From a virus: DNA of 29,245 nucleotides. Below the pieces are notes generated by a model. The model was not told the DNA's origin. It worked only from the letters and a program-made list of their open reading frames with translations, and did not search any database. The position numbers and the translations under genes were made by a program. Below are positions 4,633 through 28,539 of this stretch, piece after piece; the stretch's first letter is position 1, and each line of letters opens with the position of its first letter. The DNA is taken from positions 1 through 29,245 of IMG/VR virus record IMGVR_UViG_3300025889_000677, one strand, 5' to 3'.

Positions 4633-5070
4633 ATGGCTCATTTTGCAGAACTTAACTCAAGTAATGAAGTATTACAAGTAATCGTAGTATCAAATGATGA
4701 TGTAGATGCTAATGGTGGTGATTTACATGCAGATGCAGAAACTTTTGTAACAACTATTGTTCCACATTCAACAGGCGGAGTTGCTTGGAAACAAACTTCA
4801 TACAATCATAATTTTAGAAAACAATACGCAGGTATAGGTGCTACTTATGATGCAAGTAAAGATAAATTTATAAGTCCTCAACCTTTTCCATCTTGGTCTT
4901 TAGATTCTAACGATGATTGGCAGCCACCAGTTGCTCGACCTACTATTACAGAAATTGATTCTGAATTTGTTGTTACATCTTGGGACGAAGACAATCAAAA
5001 ATGGTTAGGTGAAGCTAACTTAAAAGATTATGAGTGGAATGCTAGTGATTTATCTTGGACTGAGATTTAA
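4633..5070 (+). CDS. Small marine-phage virion-type protein
   Basis: A 145-aa protein with the best Shine-Dalgarno in the window (AAAGGAGGT, 8 bases before ATG), which suggests high expression. The sequence 'MAHFAELNSSNEVLQVIVV' followed by 'WKQTSYNHNFRKQYAGIGATYD' and 'FPSWSLDSNDDWQPP' is a pattern I associate with small proteins encoded next to fibre genes in many marine myo- and podoviruses. Their structural role is assumed rather than known. The C-terminal third is rich in Trp and acidic residues ('W..DNQKWLGEANLKDYEWN'). No enzyme motif is visible. Position between fibre and adhesins supports a tail-tip or fibre-associated role. Confidence 0.55.
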   Translation: MAHFAELNSSNEVLQVIVVSNDDVDANGGDLHADAETFVTTIVPHSTGGVAWKQTSYNHNFRKQYAGIGATYDASKDKFISPQPFPSWSLDSNDDWQPPVARPTITEIDSEFVVTSWDEDNQKWLGEANLKDYEWNASDLSWTEI

Positions 5071-5072
5071 CT

Positions 5073-6047
5073 ATGGCTAGTATAAACGGTGGATACATTG
5101 GTATAGATTACAAACCTGAAGCAGGAACTCAATCTGCGGTTATAACTACTTTTAACTCAAGCGGTACACTGACCACAGCAGCTAGAACTACAGAAGTACA
5201 GTATGTAATTGTTGCAGGTGGGGGTGGTGGAGACCGTAATGGAGCAGGTTCAGGCGGTGGTGGTGCGGGTGGATATCGTTCATCAGTACCCGGTGAAGCA
5301 TCAGGTGGCGGAGCATCTGCAGAATCTTTAAGTCCAGTTAATGGTAGCACTGGTTATCCAGTTGTTGTTGGTGCTGGAGGAGCAGGAAATACTCCCTCAG
5401 ACACAGTAGCTAATGGAAGGCATGGTTCAAATTCAAGTTTTAATGGCGTAACATCTATTGGTGGCGGTGGTGCAGGTTTTGTACCTAATCCAACTTCTCC
5501 AAGAAATGGTGGTTCAGGCGGTGGAGCTTCATATTCAAACGCAGGGGGTAACGGAACATCAGGTCAAGGTTTTGCTGGTGGCGGAGCTGCATATAGTGGT
5601 GGTGATGCTAATGGTGGTGGTGGCGGAGGTGGAGCTTCTGAAGTAGGTGTTTCTTGTCCATTTCCTGCACCCCCACAAAGAGGTTATGATGGTGGAGATG
5701 GCGTAGCTTCTTCTATTACTGGCTCATCTGTTACAAGAGCAGGTGGTGGCGGTGGCTGTGGAAGATTTGAAAATGCAGGACCAGTTGGTCAGGGTGGAGC
5801 AGGTGGTGGTGCACCGGGTTCTAATCCTGTAGATTCACCAAATCCGGGTGGAACTGCTAATACTGGCGGTGGCGGTGGAGGAACTGATTTAGGTAATCCA
5901 CCATTTAATCCAGTTGCAAGTGGTAATGGTGGTTCAGGGGTTGTTATTATTAAAGAACCTGAAGTTAATTTTGTAAATAATGTAAGTGGAGTATGGGATA
6001 TGACTGCACTTTACGATAATGTAAAAGCAGGTAGTTGGGTAAGTTAA
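5073..6047 (+). CDS. Glycine-rich tail adhesin, paralogue 1
   Basis: A 324-aa protein in which most of residues 50-285 is made of Gly-rich runs ('AGGGGGD', 'GSGGGGAGGYRSS', 'GGGGGGAS') separated by short variable loops. An N-terminal beta segment ('TFNSSGTLTTAARTTEVQYVIVAGG') and a C-terminal 'GVWDMTALYDNVKAGSWVS' frame the run. This is the organisation of the Gly-rich adhesin domain, where polyglycine-II helices pack into a sandwich and the loops bind receptor, as known for Salmonella phage S16 gp38. It begins 2 bases after the upstream stop with only a weak GAG. A shorter open frame inside it, at 5458-5646, is a shadow of the repetitive DNA. It is likely the receptor-binding tip of the fibre; that is inferred from architecture. 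Confidence 0.65.
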   Translation: MASINGGYIGIDYKPEAGTQSAVITTFNSSGTLTTAARTTEVQYVIVAGGGGGDRNGAGSGGGGAGGYRSSVPGEASGGGASAESLSPVNGSTGYPVVVGAGGAGNTPSDTVANGRHGSNSSFNGVTSIGGGGAGFVPNPTSPRNGGSGGGASYSNAGGNGTSGQGFAGGGAAYSGGDANGGGGGGGASEVGVSCPFPAPPQRGYDGGDGVASSITGSSVTRAGGGGGCGRFENAGPVGQGGAGGGAPGSNPVDSPNPGGTANTGGGGGGTDLGNPPFNPVASGNGGSGVVIIKEPEVNFVNNVSGVWDMTALYDNVKAGSWVS

Positions 6048-6048
6048 T

Positions 6049-7002
6049 ATGCCAAGATTAATAGGAGCAGCACAAGCAGTAACCACTGACACTCAAGCAG
6101 AACAAATTACAACTTTTACTTCTAGTGGAACTCTTACTACTCAACCAAGAACAACATCACTTCAATATTTAGTAGTTGCAGGTGGCGGAGCAGGTGGAGA
6201 CACTGGTGGTGGTGGAGGAGCAGGAGGTTTTAGAACTTCCGTTCCGGGTGCTACATCAGGTGGTGGAGCTTCAGCCGAATCAACAACACCCGTTTCAGGT
6301 GGTGCACCTTATCCAGTTACAGTAGGAGCAGGGTCAGCAGAAGTAAACAGAGGAACATACGGAACAGGTAGTAATTCAGTTTTAGGTACACCAAGCCCCA
6401 TTACATCTAATGGTGGTGGAGGTGGTGGACACCGTTTTTCTTATGTTGTTGGCGGAGACCCAGTTGGTCAACCCGGTGGTTGTGGTGGTGGACATAGTAG
6501 CAATGACCCATTAGTGCCTGAAGGCACAAGTGGAACATCAGGACAAGGTTATGGTGGTGGGTCAAAAGATGTTGCTACCAACTCAGCACCAGGAGGCGGA
6601 GGAGCAGGGTCAGCAGGTTCAACTGCGTTTACACCCGGACCGGGAGTAACAGGAAGTGGAGGTGCAGGTGGTAATGGAGTTGCATCAAGCATAACAGGTT
6701 CATCAGTTACCTACGCAGGTGGCGGTGGAGGTGGCTCATCTCCAAGAAATTCTGTAGCTTCAGGAGGGTCAGGCGGTGGCGGAAATGGAGCAGCAGGAAT
6801 CGGAGGAACAGCAGCAGTAGCAGGAACAGTCAATCGAGGTGGCGGTGGTGGCGGAGGTGCTAACGATGGAAACCCCGCAGGAGCAGCAGGTGGTTCAGGT
6901 ATAGTTATAACTAAAGAAGTTGCAGTTCCTTTTACATCAGCATCAACTTGTTGGGATTTAAGAACTGTATATAGACAAATTAAAGCTGACGAGTGGGTAT
7001 AA
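6049..7002 (+). CDS. Glycine-rich tail adhesin, paralogue 2
   Basis: A 317-aa paralogue of the preceding gene, starting 1 base after its stop. Shared framework: 'ITTF.SSGTLTT..RTT..QY..VAGGG', 'SGGGASAES', 'YPV.VGAG', 'GVASSITGSSVT.AGGGGG', and a C-terminus of the form 'WD...Y...KA..WV'. The loops between Gly runs differ strongly from those of paralogue 1. The C-terminal 'CWDLRTVYRQIKADEWV' matches the neighbour's ending, so both may attach to the same partner. A divergent tandem pair would allow two receptor specificities or mixed tips. The stop codon overlaps a TATAAT sequence. Function is inferred from the Gly-rich architecture and neighbourhood. Confidence 0.65.
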   Translation: MPRLIGAAQAVTTDTQAEQITTFTSSGTLTTQPRTTSLQYLVVAGGGAGGDTGGGGGAGGFRTSVPGATSGGGASAESTTPVSGGAPYPVTVGAGSAEVNRGTYGTGSNSVLGTPSPITSNGGGGGGHRFSYVVGGDPVGQPGGCGGGHSSNDPLVPEGTSGTSGQGYGGGSKDVATNSAPGGGGAGSAGSTAFTPGPGVTGSGGAGGNGVASSITGSSVTYAGGGGGGSSPRNSVASGGSGGGGNGAAGIGGTAAVAGTVNRGGGGGGGANDGNPAGAAGGSGIVITKEVAVPFTSASTCWDLRTVYRQIKADEWV

Positions 7003-7022: not shown

Positions 7023-7643
7023 ATGAATCTAAAATATTATTACTGGTACTTCCAGTCAGTTATACCCGAAAGGATATGTGACGATATTGTTCGTTATGGT
7101 AAAGAGCAAGATAAAGAAATAGCTCTTACAGGTAATGCTAATAAAGATAAGTTAACTAAATTAGAACTAAAAAATATTCAAAAGAAAAGAAAGTCTGATG
7201 TGGTATGGATGAACGATAAGTGGATATACAAAGAAATACAACCTTACATACATCAAGCTAATGTAAATGCTGAATGGAATTTTGAATGGGATTGGTCAGA
7301 GTCTTGTCAATTTACTGAATACAAAAAAGGTCAGTTTTATGACTGGCACTGTGATTCATATATTGAACCTTATAACCAACCAGAAAACCAAAACACACAT
7401 GGTAAATTAAGAAAACTTAGTATGACTATATCGCTTACAGACCCTGATGAATATGAAGGTGGTGATTTAGAGTTTGATTTTAGAAATCAAGATGAAGCAG
7501 TACAACCAAGTATTTGCACAGAGATTAGACCAAAAGGAAGTATAGTTGTTTTTCCATCTTTTGTTTGGCATAGAGTTAAACCAGTAACTAAAGGAATACG
7601 AAACTCTTTAGTGTGTTGGAACATAGGATACCCATTTAAATGA
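7023..7643 (+). CDS. 2OG-Fe(II) oxygenase, PKHD-hydroxylase type
   Basis: A 206-aa protein with the complete facial triad of Fe(II)/2-oxoglutarate dioxygenases on a double-stranded beta-helix. The HxD motif is His109-Cys-Asp111 in 'YDWHCDSY'. The distal histidine is His183 in 'FPSFVWHRV'. The 2OG-binding arginine is Arg193 in 'GIRNSLVCW'. 'LSMTISLTDPDEYEGGDLEF' and 'GSIVVFPSF' are signature strands of the prolyl 4-hydroxylase/PKHD branch. These enzymes couple 2OG decarboxylation to hydroxylation of a protein or small molecule; the substrate here cannot be read from sequence. There is no Shine-Dalgarno in the 20 AT-rich bases before ATG. It opens a run of four such genes and overlaps the next by 4 bases (ATGA). 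Confidence 0.88.
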   Translation: MNLKYYYWYFQSVIPERICDDIVRYGKEQDKEIALTGNANKDKLTKLELKNIQKKRKSDVVWMNDKWIYKEIQPYIHQANVNAEWNFEWDWSESCQFTEYKKGQFYDWHCDSYIEPYNQPENQNTHGKLRKLSMTISLTDPDEYEGGDLEFDFRNQDEAVQPSICTEIRPKGSIVVFPSFVWHRVKPVTKGIRNSLVCWNIGYPFK

Positions 7644-8266
7644 ATTTTAAAAAAGATAAATACCAAGTAATTAAAAGTGCTATATCAACAGAACTAGCAG
7701 ATTTTTGTTATCAATACTTTTTAAACAAAAGAGCAGTAGCAAGACATTTGTTTGATGATAGATATATTTCACAATTTACTCAATACTTTGGAATTTGGAA
7801 TGATGAGATGATACCTGAAACATATTCACATTATGGTGATATAGTTATGGACACTTTATTACAGAAAGTAAAACCTGTTATGGAAAAAGAAACAAAAATT
7901 AAACTGACTGAAACATATTCATACGCTAGAATCTATAAAAAGGGTGATGAATTACATAGGCATAAAGATAGGTCTTCTTGCGAAATATCTACAACTATGC
8001 ATTTAGGTGGAGATGAGTGGTCAATCTTTTTAGAACCATCAGGCGAAGAAGGAAAAAAAGGTGTAGAGGTTAAGTTAGAAGCAGGAGATATGTTAATTTA
8101 TAAAGCCTGTGATTTAGAGCACTGGAGAGAACCTTTTGAAGGTAAAAATTGTGGACAGGTATTTTTACACTACAACGACTCTAGTAGTGCAGAAGCTAAA
8201 TTTAATAAGTTTGATGGTAGACCGATGATTGGATTACCGGGCTACTATTCATCAAATCGTGTTTGA
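7640..8266 (+). CDS. 2OG-Fe(II) oxygenase-like protein, cyanophage type
   Basis: A 208-aa protein starting within the stop of the previous gene (ATGA overlap). The metal motif His108-Lys-Asp110 lies in 'DELHRHKDRSSCEIS', and the distal His161 lies in 'KACDLEHWREPF'. The strand 'EAGDMLIYKACDLEHW' before it is characteristic of a group of 2OG-Fe(II) oxygenases common in marine T4-like phages. The usual Arg about ten residues after the distal His is not evident. Instead 'GKNCGQVFLHYND' follows, so 2OG is probably bound by another residue, or the co-substrate differs. The protein is clearly different in sequence from the first oxygenase, so the cassette did not arise by simple recent duplication. 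Substrate unknown. Confidence 0.78.
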   Translation: MNFKKDKYQVIKSAISTELADFCYQYFLNKRAVARHLFDDRYISQFTQYFGIWNDEMIPETYSHYGDIVMDTLLQKVKPVMEKETKIKLTETYSYARIYKKGDELHRHKDRSSCEISTTMHLGGDEWSIFLEPSGEEGKKGVEVKLEAGDMLIYKACDLEHWREPFEGKNCGQVFLHYNDSSSAEAKFNKFDGRPMIGLPGYYSSNRV

Positions 8267-8762
8267 AGTTTTTAATTGTGATTACATATCGAAAGTAAAC
8301 AATAAACAGTTTCAGAAAGATTTGATTGAGTACACAAAAAAAACTAAATGTTGTAATAAAGATAATTGTAATCACCCAAAAATACAAAGTGATTTAAAAA
8401 TTGATAAAGCTTTTAAAATAATTGATGATTCAATAAACAATCTTTTTAAAAGTTATTTAGGAACAGATAAGTTTGAGTTTACCAAAAAAAATGTGTGGAG
8501 TTATTACGCACCTAAAGGTTCTCAATTACAGAATGTGATGCATAATCATATGTTTAAAAAAGAAAAAGGTTTACAGATTTCTGGTTTAATGTACGTTACA
8601 CCAACAGAATTAGGTACTAACTTTGCAGATTTTAAAATAGAACCTGAAATAAACAAATGGTATCTTTGGCATTCGGGATTGTTTCATAACCCAGAAGGTG
8701 GGGTAACACCTAAAGATAGAATTGTTTTAGCTTTATCTAGTGTAATAAATAAATGCATATAA
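8229..8762 (+). CDS. Putative 2OG-Fe(II) oxygenase, HxH type
   Basis: Up to 177 aa if it starts at TTG 8229. GTG 8259, or even ATT 8247 ('IHQIVFEVF' resembles the usual start of this family), are alternatives, and all overlap the previous gene. The order 'VMHNHMF...LQISGLMYVTP...WYLWHSGLFHNPEGGVTPKDRIVLALS' fits the PF13759-like group: His105-x-His107, a 'SG-x-x-YV' strand, distal His153, then Arg164 for 2OG. An odd insert near residues 41-49 contains three Cys and a His ('CCNKDNCNH'), which could bind a metal or be disulfide-linked. The acidic partner of a classical HxD is replaced by His, as is normal for this group. It is the third gene of the cassette. Confidence 0.65.
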   Translation: MDYRATIHQIVFEVFNCDYISKVNNKQFQKDLIEYTKKTKCCNKDNCNHPKIQSDLKIDKAFKIIDDSINNLFKSYLGTDKFEFTKKNVWSYYAPKGSQLQNVMHNHMFKKEKGLQISGLMYVTPTELGTNFADFKIEPEINKWYLWHSGLFHNPEGGVTPKDRIVLALSSVINKCI

Positions 8763-9295
8763 ACATTCCAAACTTTTTATCAACAGAAGAATGTGAGTTA
8801 ATAGAAAAAGTTTTGTTAGATAAAGAAAAAGAAATACTTTCTTTACCTGCAAATACAGATTATTACTCAGGTACAACTGCAAGGTATGAACATTATAACT
8901 TTTTAAAGTACATACCCGAAGTAAACATAATAGAAAAGTTATTTGCTTTACCTATTATGCAAGATGAAAATGAATGTTGGATACAGTGTTGGGGTAATGT
9001 TCTTCATAAAAATGAAGAGATACCAATGCATAATCATGGACAGCCTGACAGTATTTTTTATGCTTGTAATATATTTATTGCAGGTCCAGAAAATTGTTTT
9101 ACTTATTATGATGATGTGGGTCATGTTGATAATAAGACAGGTGAGCTTCATTTGATTGATTGTCACCTTTTACACGGTGTAAAAGAAAACAAAGACGAGC
9201 AGCCAAGATTATCAATTGCATGTGATATACATTTTAAAGACCCAAAACATTTTGATAATTATGATACAAGAATTATTTACGCAAAAAGAGATTAA
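8753..9295 (+). CDS. Putative 2OG-Fe(II) oxygenase, HxH type
   Basis: A 180-aa protein whose ATG lies 10 bases inside the previous gene. Residues 93-95 are His-Asn-His in 'EIPMHNHGQPDS'. A beta strand 'FYACNIFIAG' follows. The distal site is His141 in 'LIDCHLLHGVKEN', and Arg152 in 'EQPRLSIACDIHF' sits where 2OG is bound in the family. The spacing of the two His sites and the terminal 'R-L-S-I-A' strand match the double-stranded beta-helix fold. The N-terminus 'MHINIPNFLSTEECELIEKVL' is the usual opening of 2OG oxygenases ('p-n-f-L-s-x-e-E-c-x-x-i'). It shares the HxH arrangement with the preceding gene but little other sequence. Substrate unknown. Confidence 0.7.
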   Translation: MHINIPNFLSTEECELIEKVLLDKEKEILSLPANTDYYSGTTARYEHYNFLKYIPEVNIIEKLFALPIMQDENECWIQCWGNVLHKNEEIPMHNHGQPDSIFYACNIFIAGPENCFTYYDDVGHVDNKTGELHLIDCHLLHGVKENKDEQPRLSIACDIHFKDPKHFDNYDTRIIYAKRD

Positions 9296-9314: not shown

Positions 9315-9560
9315 ATGGAAATGGTATCACCTTACATTGTTTGGAATGTTTTAATAACTTTAGTGTTAGCTCCAATCTGGTTTCAGATTAGACAAAACTC
9401 TTCAGAGCTTAAAAGACAAGACATACTCATTAATAAAACACGTGAAGAGATTGCAAAAGAGTATGTCACAAAACTAGAACTAAAAGATGATTTTAATCTT
9501 TTAATGGAAAGAATGGAAAAATTGCATGAAAAGGTTGACAAACTCTTTGAAGTTAAGTAA
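9315..9560 (+). CDS. Small membrane-anchored coiled-coil protein
   Basis: An 81-aa protein with a good AAAGGA site. Residues 5-23 ('SPYIVWNVLITLVLAPIWF') form one transmembrane helix. The rest is a charged, heptad-patterned helix ('SELKRQDILINKTREEIAKEY', then 'LMERMEKLHEKVDKLFEV'). It has no recognisable enzymatic motif. Proteins of this build in phages include i-spanin-like and holin-accessory proteins, but the position between oxygenases and ejection proteins is unusual for a lysis gene. Residues 14-60 are charged enough to lie on one side of the membrane. Function is not known. Confidence 0.6.
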   Translation: MEMVSPYIVWNVLITLVLAPIWFQIRQNSSELKRQDILINKTREEIAKEYVTKLELKDDFNLLMERMEKLHEKVDKLFEVK

Positions 9561-9588: not shown

Positions 9589-11775
9589 ATGGCAAGAAAT
9601 AAAAGAACAAAATTTAAAGCTTACAGAAAAGACATGAGCAAAGGTGGTAGAGTTAGTTATGCTGAAGGAAATAGAGTTGAAAAAGATACCCCTTTAAAAA
9701 AAGCTATAAAAAATAAACCAAGCAGTAGTCGTGGTGAGCAAGAGTATAACCAAGTTAAAAACATAAAAACTCCTACATCTCCAGGAGGAACTCCTCCGGT
9801 TACACCAGCACCTACACCAGCACCTACACCAGCACCAACACCGGCCCCTACTCCTGCACCTACACCAGCACCAACACCTGCACCTAGAAATGTTCCAGAA
9901 ATAGACACTCCTATTAGTGAATCTCCATCAGGTACTATAAGTCCTGCTGCAAGAGAAAGAGAATTTAGAGTTGATGAGTCTGCTAAACGTCAAGAGGATA
10001 TAGCTACAGGTAAACTTGGAATAGAAGAATTAGGTTTAAAAGCAGAAGCTGCTACAGCTACTGTAAGTGCTGATGAAATTATTGACAAAGAAGACCCTAA
10101 ATTTAAAATAGACCCGACAGGAATACCATTAGATTCAGAAGAATATGAAGCTAGAGCTGGTACAGACGAACAAGTTAGAGAAGGAGTAAGAGCTCCCGAT
10201 GTTGGAGCACCACAACCTATTACAACTTCAAAAATTGAAGATGTTGCTCAGATTGATAAAGCTCCAGACTTAGAAGCTGCTCAAGGTCAAGTATCAGATG
10301 AAGCTATAGCTCAAGCTGCTCAAGTAGATAGAGTTAAACCTATTGAAGGTGCAGAAGTAGAAATTATACCAGGTGCATTAACTGAAAGAGTTGTAGGTGT
10401 TTTAAGTCCCGAAGCTAAAGCTACTGCTGCAGAAAATGTTGGTTCTTCTTTAGCAAGAGTTACAAGAGCTAAAAAACAATTAACTAATGCAGGTTTAAGT
10501 GAAGAAGATATAACAGAGCTTGGTAATGACCCCGAATCTTTAGAAGCTAGGCTAATGGAGTTTAGTGAAACTCAACGAGGAATTATTGAAGGGCTTCCAG
10601 AAGAAGCATTAGTCTCTAATCAGTTAGATACATTAATTAATGGTATTGAAGAAGGTGAGATTCCTACATGGGCTAGACCTGCTGTTGCTAGTGTTGAAGC
10701 TATGTTAGCTCAACGTGGTATGTCTGCATCTACTGTAGGTAGAGATGCCTTGTTCAATGCTATTATAACATCAGCTATGCCTTTAGCTCAAGCAAATGCT
10801 CAAGCTATACAAGCTAGTGTAGGACAACAAAAATCTATTGAAGCTCAAGAAGCAGAAGCAAATGCTGCAAGAGCTCAACAAACAGGACTACAAAACGCAC
10901 AAACAGTATTTCAAATGGACATGGCTCAGTTTAATGCTGACCAACAAACAGCATTATCTAACAGTAAGTTCTTACAAACTGTAGGAATAACAGAAGCAAA
11001 CTTTGACCAACAATCTACAGTTCAAAATGCTTTACTTATGTCTCAAGCTAATTTAGCAGAAGCAGATTTTTATCAGAAATCTCAAATACAAAATGCTCAA
11101 GCATTCCTACAAATGGATATGGCTAACTTAAATGCAAAACAACAAACAAATGTTTTACGAGCTCAACAAGAACAACAAGTACTGTTGAGTAATCAAGCAG
11201 CAGATAACGCTGCAAAACAATTTAATGCTGCTAGTGAAAATCAAACACAACAGTTCATGACAAATTTAAATACTCAAGTTAAATTAAACAATGCTCAACG
11301 TAACGATGCTATGCAACAGTTTAATGCTGTACAAGCAAACCAAGCAGAAGCTAGAAGAGCTCAAAGAGAAACAGATGTAAATAAATTTAATGCACAATTA
11401 GCAGCTAGTGTAGACCAATACAACTCACAACAAACTTTTGCTAGAGAACAATTTAATGCTCAAAACTCTTTAGTTATTGAACAAAGTAATGTTCAGTGGA
11501 GAAGAGGTATTACTAAAGCTAATACTGCAGCTCAACAACAAATTAATATGCTTAATGCTCAACAAGCTTATGGTATTACAACTCAAGCACAAGCTGCTTT
11601 ATGGCAAGAAGTACGTGATGAGTTTGATTATATTTGGAAGTCTGCAGAAAATGCAGCTAACAGAGAAACTAATATAGCTGTAGCAGGTATGCAAGGTGAA
11701 AATTCAGCTTTAAAAGGTCCAACCTACATGAGTAGACTAGAAGACTTTTTAGCATTATTTGACCCAACAGATTAA
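9589..11775 (+). CDS. Large virion protein with PAPT repeat and Gln/Asn/Ala-rich helix
   Basis: A 728-aa protein with no recognised enzyme domain. The N-terminus is basic ('MARNKRTKFKAYRKDMSKGGR'). Residues 73-100 are six PAPT units plus PAPR, a rigid extended linker. Residues 105-330 are acidic and helical. From about 340 to 700 the chain is rich in Ala, Gln and Asn with many 'Q-F-N-A-x-Q' and 'N-A-Q' units, strongly helical and probably coiled. The end ('LWQEVRDEFDYIWKSAENAANRE') is a type of C-terminus I associate with podovirus internal/ejection proteins. It starts after a predicted promoter and heads the block of large virion genes. A role in the internal core, or as an ejected or tail-tube extending protein, is likely but inferred. 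Confidence 0.5.
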   Translation: MARNKRTKFKAYRKDMSKGGRVSYAEGNRVEKDTPLKKAIKNKPSSSRGEQEYNQVKNIKTPTSPGGTPPVTPAPTPAPTPAPTPAPTPAPTPAPTPAPRNVPEIDTPISESPSGTISPAAREREFRVDESAKRQEDIATGKLGIEELGLKAEAATATVSADEIIDKEDPKFKIDPTGIPLDSEEYEARAGTDEQVREGVRAPDVGAPQPITTSKIEDVAQIDKAPDLEAAQGQVSDEAIAQAAQVDRVKPIEGAEVEIIPGALTERVVGVLSPEAKATAAENVGSSLARVTRAKKQLTNAGLSEEDITELGNDPESLEARLMEFSETQRGIIEGLPEEALVSNQLDTLINGIEEGEIPTWARPAVASVEAMLAQRGMSASTVGRDALFNAIITSAMPLAQANAQAIQASVGQQKSIEAQEAEANAARAQQTGLQNAQTVFQMDMAQFNADQQTALSNSKFLQTVGITEANFDQQSTVQNALLMSQANLAEADFYQKSQIQNAQAFLQMDMANLNAKQQTNVLRAQQEQQVLLSNQAADNAAKQFNAASENQTQQFMTNLNTQVKLNNAQRNDAMQQFNAVQANQAEARRAQRETDVNKFNAQLAASVDQYNSQQTFAREQFNAQNSLVIEQSNVQWRRGITKANTAAQQQINMLNAQQAYGITTQAQAALWQEVRDEFDYIWKSAENAANRETNIAVAGMQGENSALKGPTYMSRLEDFLALFDPTD
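9805..9888 (+). repeat. PAPT tandem repeat (12-base period)
   Basis: Seven 12-base units encode PAPT x6 then PAPR. Third positions vary (CCA/CCG/CCT/CCC and ACA/ACT), so the repeat is conserved at the protein level rather than as a fresh DNA slippage product. Confidence 0.9.
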
Positions 11776-24772: not shown

Positions 24773-24991
24773 TTATTTCAAAACATTTAACTCTCTTTGA
24801 AAGAAGTTATGTAAGTCAGAAAGTTTATACTTTCCGTTTCTTAATATAGATTTAATTACATCCCTCTCGTCTGGTGGAAATATTTCATCCACCATTTCGA
24901 GGGGTAACGTACTAAATTCAGTTACTATTTTATTATCTCGTGTCAACAAAACTTTAAAGCTTACTAAGTTTGCTTCATTTTTATTAACCAT
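24773..24991 (-). CDS. Small protein at end of reductase operon, unknown
   Basis: A 72-aa protein, last gene of the minus-strand operon. Its ATG overlaps the end of nrdB by 8 bases and has GGAG about 6 bases upstream, so it is expected to be translated with nrdB. It is charged, without membrane helix. The end 'LRNGKYKLSDLHNFFQRELNVLK' is helical, and 'EMVDEIFPPDERDVIKSIL' looks like a short helical hairpin. No family recognised. A role linked to reductase or nucleotide supply is only suggested by coupling. Confidence 0.6.
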   Translation of the reverse strand: MVNKNEANLVSFKVLLTRDNKIVTEFSTLPLEMVDEIFPPDERDVIKSILRNGKYKLSDLHNFFQRELNVLK

Positions 24992-25967
24992 TATTACTCT
25001 CCAATTTTGAAAAAGTTATTTTATCTTGCCTACCTCTTAGTCCGGCCTTCATATAAGAAGTTGCCCGGCCCTCAAAAAAGTTCTGATGCTCTACCCCCAT
25101 TACTTCGTCTAGCCATCCTAAAGGATTCTCACGTTGGTCATAGTTGGTCTTAAGACCTAACTGAAGTAGTCTTCTATCAGCAATGTATCTGTTGTAAGCA
25201 TACATATCTTTCTTGGTAAGACCTTCAAGGTCTCCCATATCAAACACTAAGTCTAAGAATTTGTCTTCTAGTGTTACCATCTGTCTACATATTTCGTATA
25301 GTTCTCCTTTAAAATCATCTGTCCATATCTCCAGGTTCTCTTGAATAAACTCTCTAAACAATTTAGTCATAGCTTCAACGTGCATAGACTCATCACGTAT
25401 AGAGTAAGTAACTATCTGTCCCATACCTTTCATACGTCCAAAGCGTGGGAAGTTTAACAAGATTGCAAAGCTACTAAACAACTGTAGTCCTTCTGTAAAA
25501 GCTGAATAGACTGCTAAAGTTTTTGCAATGCTTTTCTTGTCAGACTTGGTTGTCTTAATTTTATGAACATACTCATGTTTGTTAGCCATCTCTTCGTACT
25601 CGGCAAAAGCTTTGTACTCTATCTCAGGCATACCAACTGTATCAAGTAGTAAGCTGTATGCATGTTGATGAATTGATTCCATGTTAGCAAACGAACCCAT
25701 CATCATTCTAGCTTCTGGTTTTCTAAAGATACGCATGTATCTGTCAACATAACCTGCACCTACATCTACATCTGATTGAGTAAACAATCTAAAGATTTGT
25801 GTAAGTAAGTTCTTTTCTTTGGGGTCTAACTCTTGCCAATCCTTTACGTCTGTATGTAGTGGTACTGACTCCGGCATCCAATGCATTTGATTCTGTAACA
25901 CGTAGTAATCAAACATCCATGGGTTGTCAAAAGGTTTGTAATAATCTCTTGTGTCTAATAAACTCAT
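24984..25967 (-). CDS. nrdB: Ribonucleoside-diphosphate reductase, beta subunit
   Basis: A 327-aa class I small subunit that makes the radical needed by NrdA to reduce NDPs to dNDPs. All metal ligands are visible and spaced as in E. coli R2: Asp66, Glu97, His100 ('MESIHQHAY'), Glu159, Glu193 and His196 ('IRDESMHVEA'). Tyr104 sits at the radical position (E. coli Tyr122), so a tyrosyl-radical enzyme is expected. Tyr305 near the C-terminus ('RATSYMKAG') may correspond to Tyr356 of the radical path. The protein is about 50 residues shorter than E. coli NrdB, mostly at the ends. ATG follows AAGGAG and overlaps the stop of the 59-aa gene (ATGA). The sequence style matches reductases of marine T4-like and podoviruses. 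Confidence 0.95.
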   Translation of the reverse strand: MSLLDTRDYYKPFDNPWMFDYYVLQNQMHWMPESVPLHTDVKDWQELDPKEKNLLTQIFRLFTQSDVDVGAGYVDRYMRIFRKPEARMMMGSFANMESIHQHAYSLLLDTVGMPEIEYKAFAEYEEMANKHEYVHKIKTTKSDKKSIAKTLAVYSAFTEGLQLFSSFAILLNFPRFGRMKGMGQIVTYSIRDESMHVEAMTKLFREFIQENLEIWTDDFKGELYEICRQMVTLEDKFLDLVFDMGDLEGLTKKDMYAYNRYIADRRLLQLGLKTNYDQRENPLGWLDEVMGVEHQNFFEGRATSYMKAGLRGRQDKITFSKLESNNG

Positions 25968-26143
25968 CTGTTCTCCTTGTTAAATCTCTTAACTAAATAT
26001 TTAAAATTTTCAATTACGTATCCTGCGTAATCTTTTGTTTTTGAGAATGGGTCTTTATGTTCATCACAATAATCTAACCACATTCTACTAGTAAAGCCAG
26101 AAAACTTCTGACTAAATACACTTGTAAACTCTTCTTGTCTCAT
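25964..26143 (-). CDS. 59-aa protein upstream of nrdB
   Basis: A short gene of 59 codons, read as 'MRQEEFTSVFSQKFSGFTSR' then 'MWLDYCDEHKDPFSKTKDYAGY' in pieces, ending 'KRFNKENR'. AAGGAAG lies 6 bases before its ATG, and its TGA overlaps the ATG of nrdB (ATGA), which is strong support for a real coupled gene. Without it there would be a 177-base hole in an otherwise gapless operon. It is aromatic and charged, with one Cys and no membrane helix. Function is unknown; position suggests a link to NrdB or its expression. Confidence 0.65.
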   Translation of the reverse strand: MRQEEFTSVFSQKFSGFTSRMWLDYCDEHKDPFSKTKDYAGYVIENFKYLVKRFNKENR

Positions 26144-26144
26144 A

Positions 26145-26642
26145 TTAATCTTCCTTATAATTATTTAAATATGTAGTTGCTTTTTGTAAAACATCTACAT
26201 TGTCTTTGAAGTATCCTAATCCTGCATTACATAAATGACACAACATACCACGAACCTTGTTTGTATTGTGGCAGTGGTCTACAAAAGGCTTAGTATTGTG
26301 AGTATCATATGAAAAATCTATTGAACATATTTTACACTGATTGTTTTGAGACTTTAATAAATTATCCCAATCTTCTAATGTTAGATTATATTTTCTTTTT
26401 AATCTATATATTTTATTAGTTTTTGCAACATGTTCTTTATTTTTTAAGTACCATTTTTTATTTTGAAGTTGTAATTTTTCTTTATTATTTTCTTTATAAC
26501 ATGCATTTTTTAATTTTATTTCTGGTTTATTATTGTATATTTTTGATTTAACTTTAATAGTTTCTTTGTTTTTTTCGTAGTATTTTTTTTGTTTTTGTTT
26601 TACTTTTTCTTTATTATCTTGATAATATTGTTGTGTGGTCAT
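26145..26642 (-). CDS. Endonuclease VII-type HNH nuclease, putative homing endonuclease
   Basis: A 165-aa protein. ATG 26642 is chosen because it lies 1 base after the nrdA stop with GAGGG upstream; a longer frame from 26672 runs inside nrdA. Residues 103-139 match T4 endonuclease VII: zinc Cys103/Cys106 ('CKIC') and Cys135/Cys138 ('CHLCN'), catalytic Asp122-His123, His125 ('VDHCH') and Asn139. Residues 1-85 are Lys/Asn/Tyr-rich degenerate repeats ('YYEKNKETIK', 'WYLKNKEHVAK'), far more AT-rich than nrdA or nrdB. T4 endonuclease VII resolves branched DNA, but free-standing relatives with such repeats inserted beside reductase genes usually behave as homing nucleases. It interrupts the nrdA-nrdB operon. 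Confidence 0.8.
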   Translation of the reverse strand: MTTQQYYQDNKEKVKQKQKKYYEKNKETIKVKSKIYNNKPEIKLKNACYKENNKEKLQLQNKKWYLKNKEHVAKTNKIYRLKRKYNLTLEDWDNLLKSQNNQCKICSIDFSYDTHNTKPFVDHCHNTNKVRGMLCHLCNAGLGYFKDNVDVLQKATTYLNNYKED

Positions 26643-26643
26643 A

Positions 26644-28539
26644 CTATCCCTCACATGCGATACATTCAGCATCGTCTAATTTAATACGTTGTACTTTAGT
26701 GTTTACGTTCTCTGCATTACGAGCAGCATTAGTTCTAAAGTAATATAAAGATTTAAGTTTGTTCATACCATACCAATGAACATCATTGACATACTGCATG
26801 TACTCATCGTGTACTTCTTGGGGCTCTGTAGCTGTAGGTATAGTAAAGAAAAGATTAACTGACTGTGCTTGACAAATAAACTCTTGTCGTTTAGCAGCAT
26901 GTTCTATAATCCATATTTGGTCTATCTCATTAGCAGTTTTAAATATTTCTTTTTCATCGTCAGTAAGAATATCTAAGTGTTGAACTGAGCCTTCTTTACC
27001 TGCAATGTCTTTCCACAATGCAGTAAGCTCATCTTTCTTTAATCCTTTATCTTGTAATACTTCTTCTAAGTATTTGTTTTTAACTTGGAACGAACCACTG
27101 AGAGTTTTGTGCGTATAAACGTTAGCACGATATGGCTCAATCGAAGGAGATGTCCCACCACATATGATACTAGAAGAAGCATTAGGAGCAACAGCGAGTA
27201 GATGAGCATTACGCCTACCACTACCACTGATATCAGGTGACTCACCACGTTCATCAGCAAGTCGTTCAGTTGCTCTAAGCGAATGTCTTTTAATGTGTTT
27301 AAATGCTTTGTAATTAAAGCCCGTAGCGTATATACCCTCAAAAGGTAACCTGCGTGACTGGAGATACGAATGGAATCCCATCGCACCCAGACCGAGTGAC
27401 CTTTCTCTGTAAGCAGAGTAGGCAGATTTAAGAAAGCCTTCTTTGCCCGGCTTAATATGTTTCTGAAACCTTTTAAAGTTTGCATTGTATTCTCCTAGGT
27501 TGTCTGTATCCACAGCGTTATCAATATAATGTTGAAGCACGTTGTCTAACATGGTTATTAAATCATCAATGAACATAGGATTCTCTGACCACTCGTCAAA
27601 GTATTCTAAGTTCACACTAGACAAACAACACACTGCTGTTCGTTCTTCGTTGGTGGCTAGGGTTATCTCAGAACATAAGTTGCTCTGTTTAATATTTAAT
27701 CCTAAAGCTTTTTGTTCTTTGGGTAAAGCATCATTACATCTATCAATGTTAATCATGTAAGGCTCACCTGTCTCTGCTCTAGCATTAATAATCTGCCACC
27801 ATAAATCTCTAGCATTTACAATCTTAGTAGGCTCATGAGTCTTAGGGTCAATTAATCTAAAGTCTGCATCTTCTTCAACAGCTTTCAAAAACTCATTGGT
27901 AATGTTAATACCATTGTGAAGATTAAGATTCTTACGATTGATATCACCACCAGATTCTTTACGCATGTTAATGAACTCTTCAATCTCCGGATGAGATATA
28001 TCCATGTAAGCTGCATAGCTTCCACGTCTTGTAGTGCCTTGGTTAAAGGCTAACATCTGAGAATCTACGACATGCATAAAGGGGATTGAACCAGTAGACT
28101 TACTACCGTGAGTAGTAGAAATACCGTTACTTCTAATATCTCCCCAATATCCACCAATACCTCCACCCGAACTCGCCAACCATATATTCTCGTCATAATG
28201 AGCAGATAACCCATCACGACTATCAGGTACATAATTGAGGAAACAGCTAATAGGAAGCCCACGACTTGTTCCCCCGTTACTAAGTATAGGAGTGCTAAAC
28301 ATGAACCAACAATTGGAACTGTAGTGGTAAAGTCTTTGAGCCAATTCAAAATCTGTGTGACCTTTGTAGGTCGCCCCGAAGACGGATGCTCTTGCGAATG
28401 CTTCTTGTGCATGTGTTTCATTCTCCCATAAATATCTATCCTTGAGTGTGTCAAGACTAAACTTATCTAATAGTTTTTCATTACTATAATTAATTTTTAT
28501 ACCAAGATATTCCTTGATACCTACTTTATCTTCAATCAT
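26644..28539 (-). CDS. nrdA: Ribonucleoside-diphosphate reductase, alpha subunit, no ATP cone
   Basis: A 631-aa class I large subunit, the catalytic half of the enzyme that supplies dNTPs. Active-site residues are present: Cys99 ('PISCFLN', E. coli Cys225), Asn287-x-Cys289-x-Glu291 ('SNLCSEI', Asn437/Cys439/Glu441), Cys304 ('AVCCLSS', Cys462), Tyr599-Tyr600 ('LKSLYYFRT', radical path), and the C-terminal redox pair Cys626/Cys629 ('CIACEG'). 'APNASSSIICGGTSPSIEPY' is the phosphate-binding loop region. The catalytic Cys lies about 126 residues closer to the start than in E. coli, so the N-terminal ATP cone (overall activity site) is absent. Its ATG overlaps the end of the DUF3310 gene by 8 bases; AAGGA lies upstream. 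Confidence 0.95.
   Translation of the reverse strand: MIEDKVGIKEYLGIKINYSNEKLLDKFSLDTLKDRYLWENETHAQEAFARASVFGATYKGHTDFELAQRLYHYSSNCWFMFSTPILSNGGTSRGLPISCFLNYVPDSRDGLSAHYDENIWLASSGGGIGGYWGDIRSNGISTTHGSKSTGSIPFMHVVDSQMLAFNQGTTRRGSYAAYMDISHPEIEEFINMRKESGGDINRKNLNLHNGINITNEFLKAVEEDADFRLIDPKTHEPTKIVNARDLWWQIINARAETGEPYMINIDRCNDALPKEQKALGLNIKQSNLCSEITLATNEERTAVCCLSSVNLEYFDEWSENPMFIDDLITMLDNVLQHYIDNAVDTDNLGEYNANFKRFQKHIKPGKEGFLKSAYSAYRERSLGLGAMGFHSYLQSRRLPFEGIYATGFNYKAFKHIKRHSLRATERLADERGESPDISGSGRRNAHLLAVAPNASSSIICGGTSPSIEPYRANVYTHKTLSGSFQVKNKYLEEVLQDKGLKKDELTALWKDIAGKEGSVQHLDILTDDEKEIFKTANEIDQIWIIEHAAKRQEFICQAQSVNLFFTIPTATEPQEVHDEYMQYVNDVHWYGMNKLKSLYYFRTNAARNAENVNTKVQRIKLDDAECIACEG

Follow-up and report, generated by a model that had tools for sequence, protein, structure and literature searches.

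Four overlapping genes for putative oxygenases in the tail region of a virus raise the question of what such a set of enzymes might modify, and whether the genes belong together at all. The virus record analyzed here, hereafter the window, is 29,245 bases long in full. Its + strand encodes a block of tail/virion genes, and its - strand encodes the small and large subunits of ribonucleotide reductase (24984-28539), with a 175-aa ORF separating the two genes. A preliminary description of this DNA had pointed to four consecutive 2OG-Fe(II) oxygenase genes, and all four ORFs were found as described, each on the + strand; they are named g1 to g4 and are listed here with a short gene that marks the 3′ end of the cassette:

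7023..7643, + strand: g1, 206 aa, PF13640 / phrog_61 oxygenase (H109, D111, H183, 2OG Arg R193)
7640..8266, + strand: g2, 208 aa, phrog_2954 / T4-GC 615 protein annotated as 'ferrochelatase', apparently a 2OG-type oxygenase (H108, D110, H161, Q173)
8259..8762, + strand: g3, 167 aa from GTG 8259 (alternative TTG 8229), divergent PF13759-type oxygenase (H95, H97, H143, R154)
8753..9295, + strand: g4, 180 aa, PF13759 / phrog_81 oxygenase (H93, H95, H141, R152)
9315..9560, + strand: short protein gene, cassette 3′ end marker, weak phrog_12220 / phrog_462 matches

The adjacent genes overlap by 4 nt between g1 and g2 (ATGA), by 8 nt between g2 and g3 when g3 begins at its GTG, and by 10 nt between g3 and g4, which confirms the overlaps previously proposed and favours the short end of the 8 to 38 bases allowed for the second of them. 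Of the 49 contigs that contain g3, 44 have ATG and 5 have GTG as the codon at window position 8259, which makes GTG 8259 the likely start in the window and would give a g2/g3 overlap of 8 nt and a protein of 167 aa. Among the relatives, the overlap lengths of 4, 8, and 10 nt are kept in 39/48, 37/49, and 26/29 contigs, respectively. The gene g2 lies directly upstream of g3 in all 49 contigs and g1 is present in 48, the remaining contig being too short upstream, and g4 is the next gene after g3 in 27 of the 39 contigs having enough downstream sequence. The linkage proposed from this one stretch thus holds across contigs: the genes are not scattered, and their order and overlaps are kept in dozens of viral contigs. 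The dN/dS values of g1, g2, g3, and g4 against relatives (0.07-0.36) point to purifying selection on all four oxygenase genes and, together with the conserved overlaps, argue that the four-gene arrangement is not due to chance. The proteins are mutually divergent, as had been noted, with no significant BLASTP similarity among g1-g4. The arrangement is typical of coupled translation, and the computations support treating g1-g4 as one cassette. Around the cassette, the annotated phage most closely related to the window is Pelagibacter phage HTVC033P (72% nucleotide identity over g1 and g2), from which we infer that the host is probably SAR11.

Fold and family of the four proteins

The g1 protein matched Pfam family PF13640 (5.9e-16) and phrog_61 (1e-39), and a search of the PDB with its profile returned the PKHD hydroxylase 3dkq (1.5e-7) and PiuC 9ghl (6.7e-7). 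The metal site H109, D111, and H183 and the 2OG Arg R193 are among the invariant residues, so that the HxD pair and the distal His 183 had been correctly placed. On this basis g1 is assigned to the double-stranded beta-helix oxygenases. The match of the g1 profile to the PKHD-type proteins Sbal_3634 (3dkq) and PiuC spans the catalytic core, the metal site, and the Arg; however, g1 falls far under the NCBIfam PKHD cut-offs (62.9 bits for the PiuC/YbiX equivalog with a cut-off of 143), and PKHD genes are bacterial, whereas g1 lies in a phage tail region.

The g2 protein matched phrog_2954 (8e-49), a family annotated as 'ferrochelatase', and yet the ferrochelatase models of Pfam and NCBIfam gave no match for g2 or for the tested phage relatives, including S-PM2p234. 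Searches of the PDB with the g2, g3, and g4 sequence profiles gave chance-level matches only. Given that an hhalign comparison of the g2 family with the PF13640-type set was also not significant (prob 5), the fold assignment of g2 rests on its structure model. The AF2 model (pLDDT 93.7) gave 773 PDB matches at E <= 0.001, and the 50 listed were mainly 2OG oxygenases. The best Foldseek match was P. putida PPHD (4iw3, E 2e-9), which was crystallized with EF-Tu; structural neighbours by VIA included PHD2 and SnoN at Z 15-16.5, with SnoN, a small-molecule enzyme, at the top by Z. Thus, g2 resembles PPHD (4iw3, 4j25) and PHD2/EGLN1 (Z about 15) in fold and in its HxD...H site, but shares only about 10-16% identity with them and has an invariant Gln at the usual position of the 2OG Arg. 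In an alignment of 58 g2 sequences, H108, D110, H161, R163, and Q173 were invariant, in agreement with the HxD motif and distal His 161 first noted. An Arg or Lys about 10 residues past the distal His is found in g1, g3, and g4 and is absent from g2 (Q173), which bears out the earlier observation that the 2OG Arg is visible in three of the proteins, namely as R193, R154, and R152. The model confidently predicts a double-stranded beta-helix oxygenase fold for g2. This fold, which is not that of a chelatase, and the lack of any ferrochelatase match speak against a ferrochelatase identity of the family; judging from the model, the phrog_2954 / T4-GC 615 'ferrochelatase' is apparently a 2OG-type oxygenase, and the published heme-enzyme name apparently wrong. 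The open papers that were searched held no correction of this name, an absence that is not proof.

Relatives of g2 were also found in bacteria, including Brevundimonas and Legionella. The Brevundimonas member keeps the metal site and lies in a lasso-peptide-like cluster (locus L301, 457-5067) with an Asn synthase, a Transglut_core3 protein, and an HPr-kinase-like protein, where it would appear to be a lasso-cluster tailoring enzyme. The Legionella relative adjoins a PF13640 gene, and the S-PM2 copy of g2 lies near a helicase gene.

The g4 protein matched phrog_81 (4.4e-14) and reached PF13759 at 3.8e-5 with a score of 24.4, just under the Pfam cut-off of 27; its relative in locus L153 exceeded the cut-off (39.0, 1.1e-9). 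For g3, neither PHROG nor the phage isolate collection yielded a match, and hmmscan did not link the protein to PF13759. A direct AF2 model of g3 from 15 close sequences had a pLDDT of 39, and early hhalign runs on shallow alignments found nothing. A g3-like gene in locus L055 bridged g3 to the g4 profile (2.4e-33 and 1.4e-3), and hhalign of g3 against the PF13759 phage set gave prob 94.4, E 8.4e-8, and a score of 51.4, whereas none of 60 column shuffles scored above 26.1. The W, HxH, distal H, and Arg of g3 line up with those of the PF13759 phage set, and the same residues are found in the DSL-LC04 protein and HTVC033P gp60 of PF13759 (2OG-FeII_Oxy_5), although g3 is linked to this family by profile-profile comparison only. 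By profile homology, these comparisons place both g3 and g4 with the PF13759 double-stranded beta-helix oxygenases. For the beta-helix expected in the last two genes, support thus comes from the profiles, whereas the direct model of g3 stayed at its low pLDDT. The HxH pairs had been read correctly (H95 and H97 in g3, H93 and H95 in g4), as had the distal His, which is H141 in g4 and H143 in g3, the latter being residue 153 in the numbering from TTG. Thus, g1 and g2 have HxD...H, whereas g3 and g4 lack the canonical Asp and have HxH...H, in which the second His may take its place as an iron ligand. The possibility that HxH is a quirk of one phage was rejected, as HxH...H is invariant across the PF13759 phage set, in which the Arg is also common to phage members.

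Related clusters, fusions, and tail-gene neighbours

A link between g1 and g2 was provided by 14 natural ORFs, on 12 viral contigs and 2 genome contigs, in which a g2 domain is followed by a g1-like domain. The six fusion ORFs that were aligned keep both metal sites, with a reservation on how one distal site is spaced in two copies that look cyanophage-like. These fusions are good evidence that g1 and g2 would work together. The g1 and g2 families were also found in multi-oxygenase clusters of the isolates HTVC033P, HTVC023P, HTVC008M, Mosig, 023Pt, S-SM1, S-RSM4, S-SSM5, P-RSM4, and S-CAM8, so that the premise of the preliminary description, that single 2OG oxygenases are common in marine phages, needs amending: oxygenase genes are often clustered, not single. 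HTVC023P-type pelagiphages and T4-like cyanophages (S-SM1, S-SSM5, P-RSM4, HTVC008M, and HTVC033P among those compared) have the same g1 (phrog_61 / T4-GC 412) and g2 (phrog_2954 / T4-GC 615) families in overlapping genes, often near tail fibres. The window group likewise has a cassette of pelagiphage/cyanophage type, with overlapping oxygenase genes including phrog_61 and phrog_2954 members beside tail genes; it differs in its g1-g2-g3-g4 order with g3, a branch that lacks a PHROG or phage-isolate match. The best explanation is that g1-g2 is a conserved, functionally coupled core that g3 accompanies in the phage group of the window, with g4 and other oxygenases coming and going.

Two further families carry DNA-enzyme names. 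Proteins of phrog_274, named 'DNA endonuclease V' or denV (L055, 5456-6004; L029, 4511-5053; L034, 10145-10633), have an invariant H..D..H..R and at the profile level weakly resemble oxygenases of PF13640 type (prob 82, E 1e-5), and phrog_274 is probably another misnamed oxygenase family. Its gene forms a fifth gene exactly between g1 and g2 in L026, L028, L029, and L055. In addition, phrog_2297 'DNA endonuclease' (S-SM1 'leprecan'; L034, 9618-10142) matched PF13640 at 4.7e-10.

Parts of this picture had been published. A list from 2010 already includes cyanophage T4-GC 412 and 615 (PMC3037559), 2OG oxygenases co-located with 'ferrochelatase' are known from pelagiphages (PMC9599517), an enrichment of phrog61 and phrog2954 in seasonal marine viruses has been described (PMC11561400), and phage 2OG oxygenases, PHROG 61 above all, were found to be structurally like EGLN3 (PMC12774648). 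The first three of these papers report the co-location of the two families, and the oxygenase cluster itself is therefore already known, with related cassettes in pelagiphages and cyanophages. The oxygenase nature of phrog_2954, the g2-g1 fusions, and the linkage to upstream Gly-rich tail genes are new as far as the open papers searched go, in which neither the fusions nor the Gly-rich linkage was found.

Three genes upstream of g1 in the window are candidates for the protein acted on, and in three cyanomyoviruses a carbamoyltransferase gene adjoins the orthologous pair:

4633..5070, + strand: phrog_7759 small tail-region protein ('MAHFAEL...'), candidate partner or substrate, found beside oxygenase genes in other phages
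5073..6047, + strand: Gly-rich tail-region protein 1, candidate substrate (PF21722 2e-16; phrog_2295)
6049..7002, + strand: Gly-rich tail-region protein 2, directly before g1, candidate substrate (PF21722 4e-10; phrog_2295)
L242 5178-6788, L246 3157-4821, L252 2158-3822, strand opposite to g1-g2: carbamoyltransferase genes of three cyanomyoviruses

In 73/100 distinct loci, g2 is preceded within 3.5 kb by a Gly-rich ORF in the same orientation, as against 2/83 loci with such an ORF within 3 kb downstream, a test that was chosen after the data had been seen and on loci that are not independent, some being close relatives. By kinship, 60/62 close g2 relatives had the upstream Gly-rich ORF and 13/38 distant ones did (25/38 without). 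The phrog_7759 gene lies beside oxygenase genes in S-SSM5, P-RSM4, S-CAM8, DSL-LC04, ctNMl277, HTVC008M, and others; it directly adjoins g2 in the first three, it accompanies the cyanomyovirus g1-g2 orthologues (T4-GC 412-615-616), and it overlaps a PF13759 gene in DSL-LC04. More widely, tail regions of pelagi-, cyano-, roseo-, and freshwater phages repeatedly contain phrog_7759, in many cases beside oxygenases. Since other phages carry it with no annotated oxygenase close by, its role as an obligate substrate was rejected. Genes for other modifying enzymes were found in some relatives: a sulfotransferase gene (PF13469, 1.5e-13) is inserted after the Gly-rich gene and before g1 (L008, 5959-6774), and the carbamoyltransferase gene lies directly before the g1-g2 orthologues, on the opposite strand, in S-CAM8, S-SSM5, and P-RSM4. 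Downstream in the window, a large virion-block protein (9589-11775) has a proline-rich (TPAP)n repeat; this was rejected as a prolyl hydroxylase substrate, since among the checked loci only the window and L005 have it.

Possible substrates of the cassette

The computations support the family memberships, the g2 fold, the synteny, the purifying selection, the g2-g1 fusion, and the Gly-rich tail linkage; we infer that the enzymes would be active, would act on protein, and would have the tail as substrate. The reading that we prefer, at a little below an even chance, is that divergent oxygenases of Fe(II)/2OG type, co-translated from one late-gene cassette, would hydroxylate a co-made protein, the Gly-rich tail adhesins or the phrog_7759 protein being the first candidates. 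In such a system g1-g4 would be made together late, next to the Gly-rich tail genes, each oxygenase would hydroxylate its own residue or site on the side chains of the co-made protein, and in some relatives neighbouring enzymes would then sulfate or carbamoylate the new hydroxyls. Virion-protein modification is favoured by the Gly-rich tail neighbours, the natural fusions, and the relative in the lasso-peptide cluster, and this part of the earlier proposal of a pathway or multi-site system acting on a virion protein, envelope molecule, or host metabolite is retained; no sign of a sequential pathway was seen, and action on host targets remains as a rival. By analogy, the closest g2 folds include the protein hydroxylases PPHD (on EF-Tu) and PHD2 (on HIF), which we count for a protein target. 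The open papers searched held no precedent for oxygenase modification of a phage's own tail proteins. Tail-protein hydroxylation is countered by SnoN as the top match of g2 by Z, by the distant g2 relatives without an upstream Gly-rich gene (25/38), by the S-PM2 copy near a helicase, and by the missing usual 2OG Arg in g2 and canonical Asp in g3 and g4; moreover, the cassette may lie near the tail genes simply because this is a hotspot of gene gain. A more specific and more doubtful version is a dedicated modification of the phage's own receptor-binding adhesins, in which the g1 and g2 pair (sometimes fused) and a changing PF13759 set would hydroxylate Gly-rich fibres, sulfo- and carbamoyltransferases would decorate them, and host attachment would be tuned.

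The resemblance of g2 to PPHD could also suggest protein hydroxylases directed at the host during infection, at translation factors or ribosomal proteins, that lie in the late block by chance, given that the P. putida enzyme was crystallized with EF-Tu. We consider this unlikely: the cassette lies in the virion block right behind the tail genes and with a recurrent Gly-rich linkage, a late block is an odd place for genes of early host takeover, and nothing ties g1-g4 to a host target. The published proposals instead favour auxiliary metabolic enzymes, acting on small molecules or through drawdown of 2-oxoglutarate, as proposed for cyanophage oxygenases (PMC3037559), and paired with ferrochelatase (PMC9599517, PMC11561400), and some structural neighbours of g2, such as SnoN, are indeed small-molecule enzymes. 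We give this explanation a similarly low weight, as its heme-pathway part falls with the oxygenase fold of the 'ferrochelatase' and its missing match to ferrochelatase models, and as four divergent enzymes, fusions, and tail linkage are easier to reconcile with modification of specific sites than with a bulk use of 2OG.

Gln173, invariant in g2 where an Arg is usual, and the HxH of g3 and g4, which replaces HxD, would fit proteins that are non-catalytic or non-2OG partners of g1 as the sole working hydroxylase. The metal-site His are, however, invariant, the genes are under purifying selection, and the Brevundimonas member of the g2 family keeps the site, which makes this quite improbable. Modification of host surface molecules or of the receptor (LpxO-like on lipid A, or on surface glycans), with a block of superinfection or easier release as the outcome, is the least probable of these explanations. 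Phage tail-region genes can encode surface-active functions, and one g2-family member matched LpxO, though very weakly (E 0.068); on the other side, g1-g4 show no apparent membrane segment, and the closest solved g1 relatives and the g2 fold matches are soluble enzymes.

Pelagiphages rank among the most abundant viruses of the sea, and correcting the annotation of phrog_2954 is of practical weight. Papers on the phrog_61/phrog_2954 pair treat it as host-metabolism genes, with a link to heme by way of 'ferrochelatase', and this link is removed if the family is, as it appears, one of oxygenases. The fusions and the tail linkage would offer a concrete alternative, in which the phage modifies its own tail proteins, and so bear on the question of what phage 2OG oxygenases act on.
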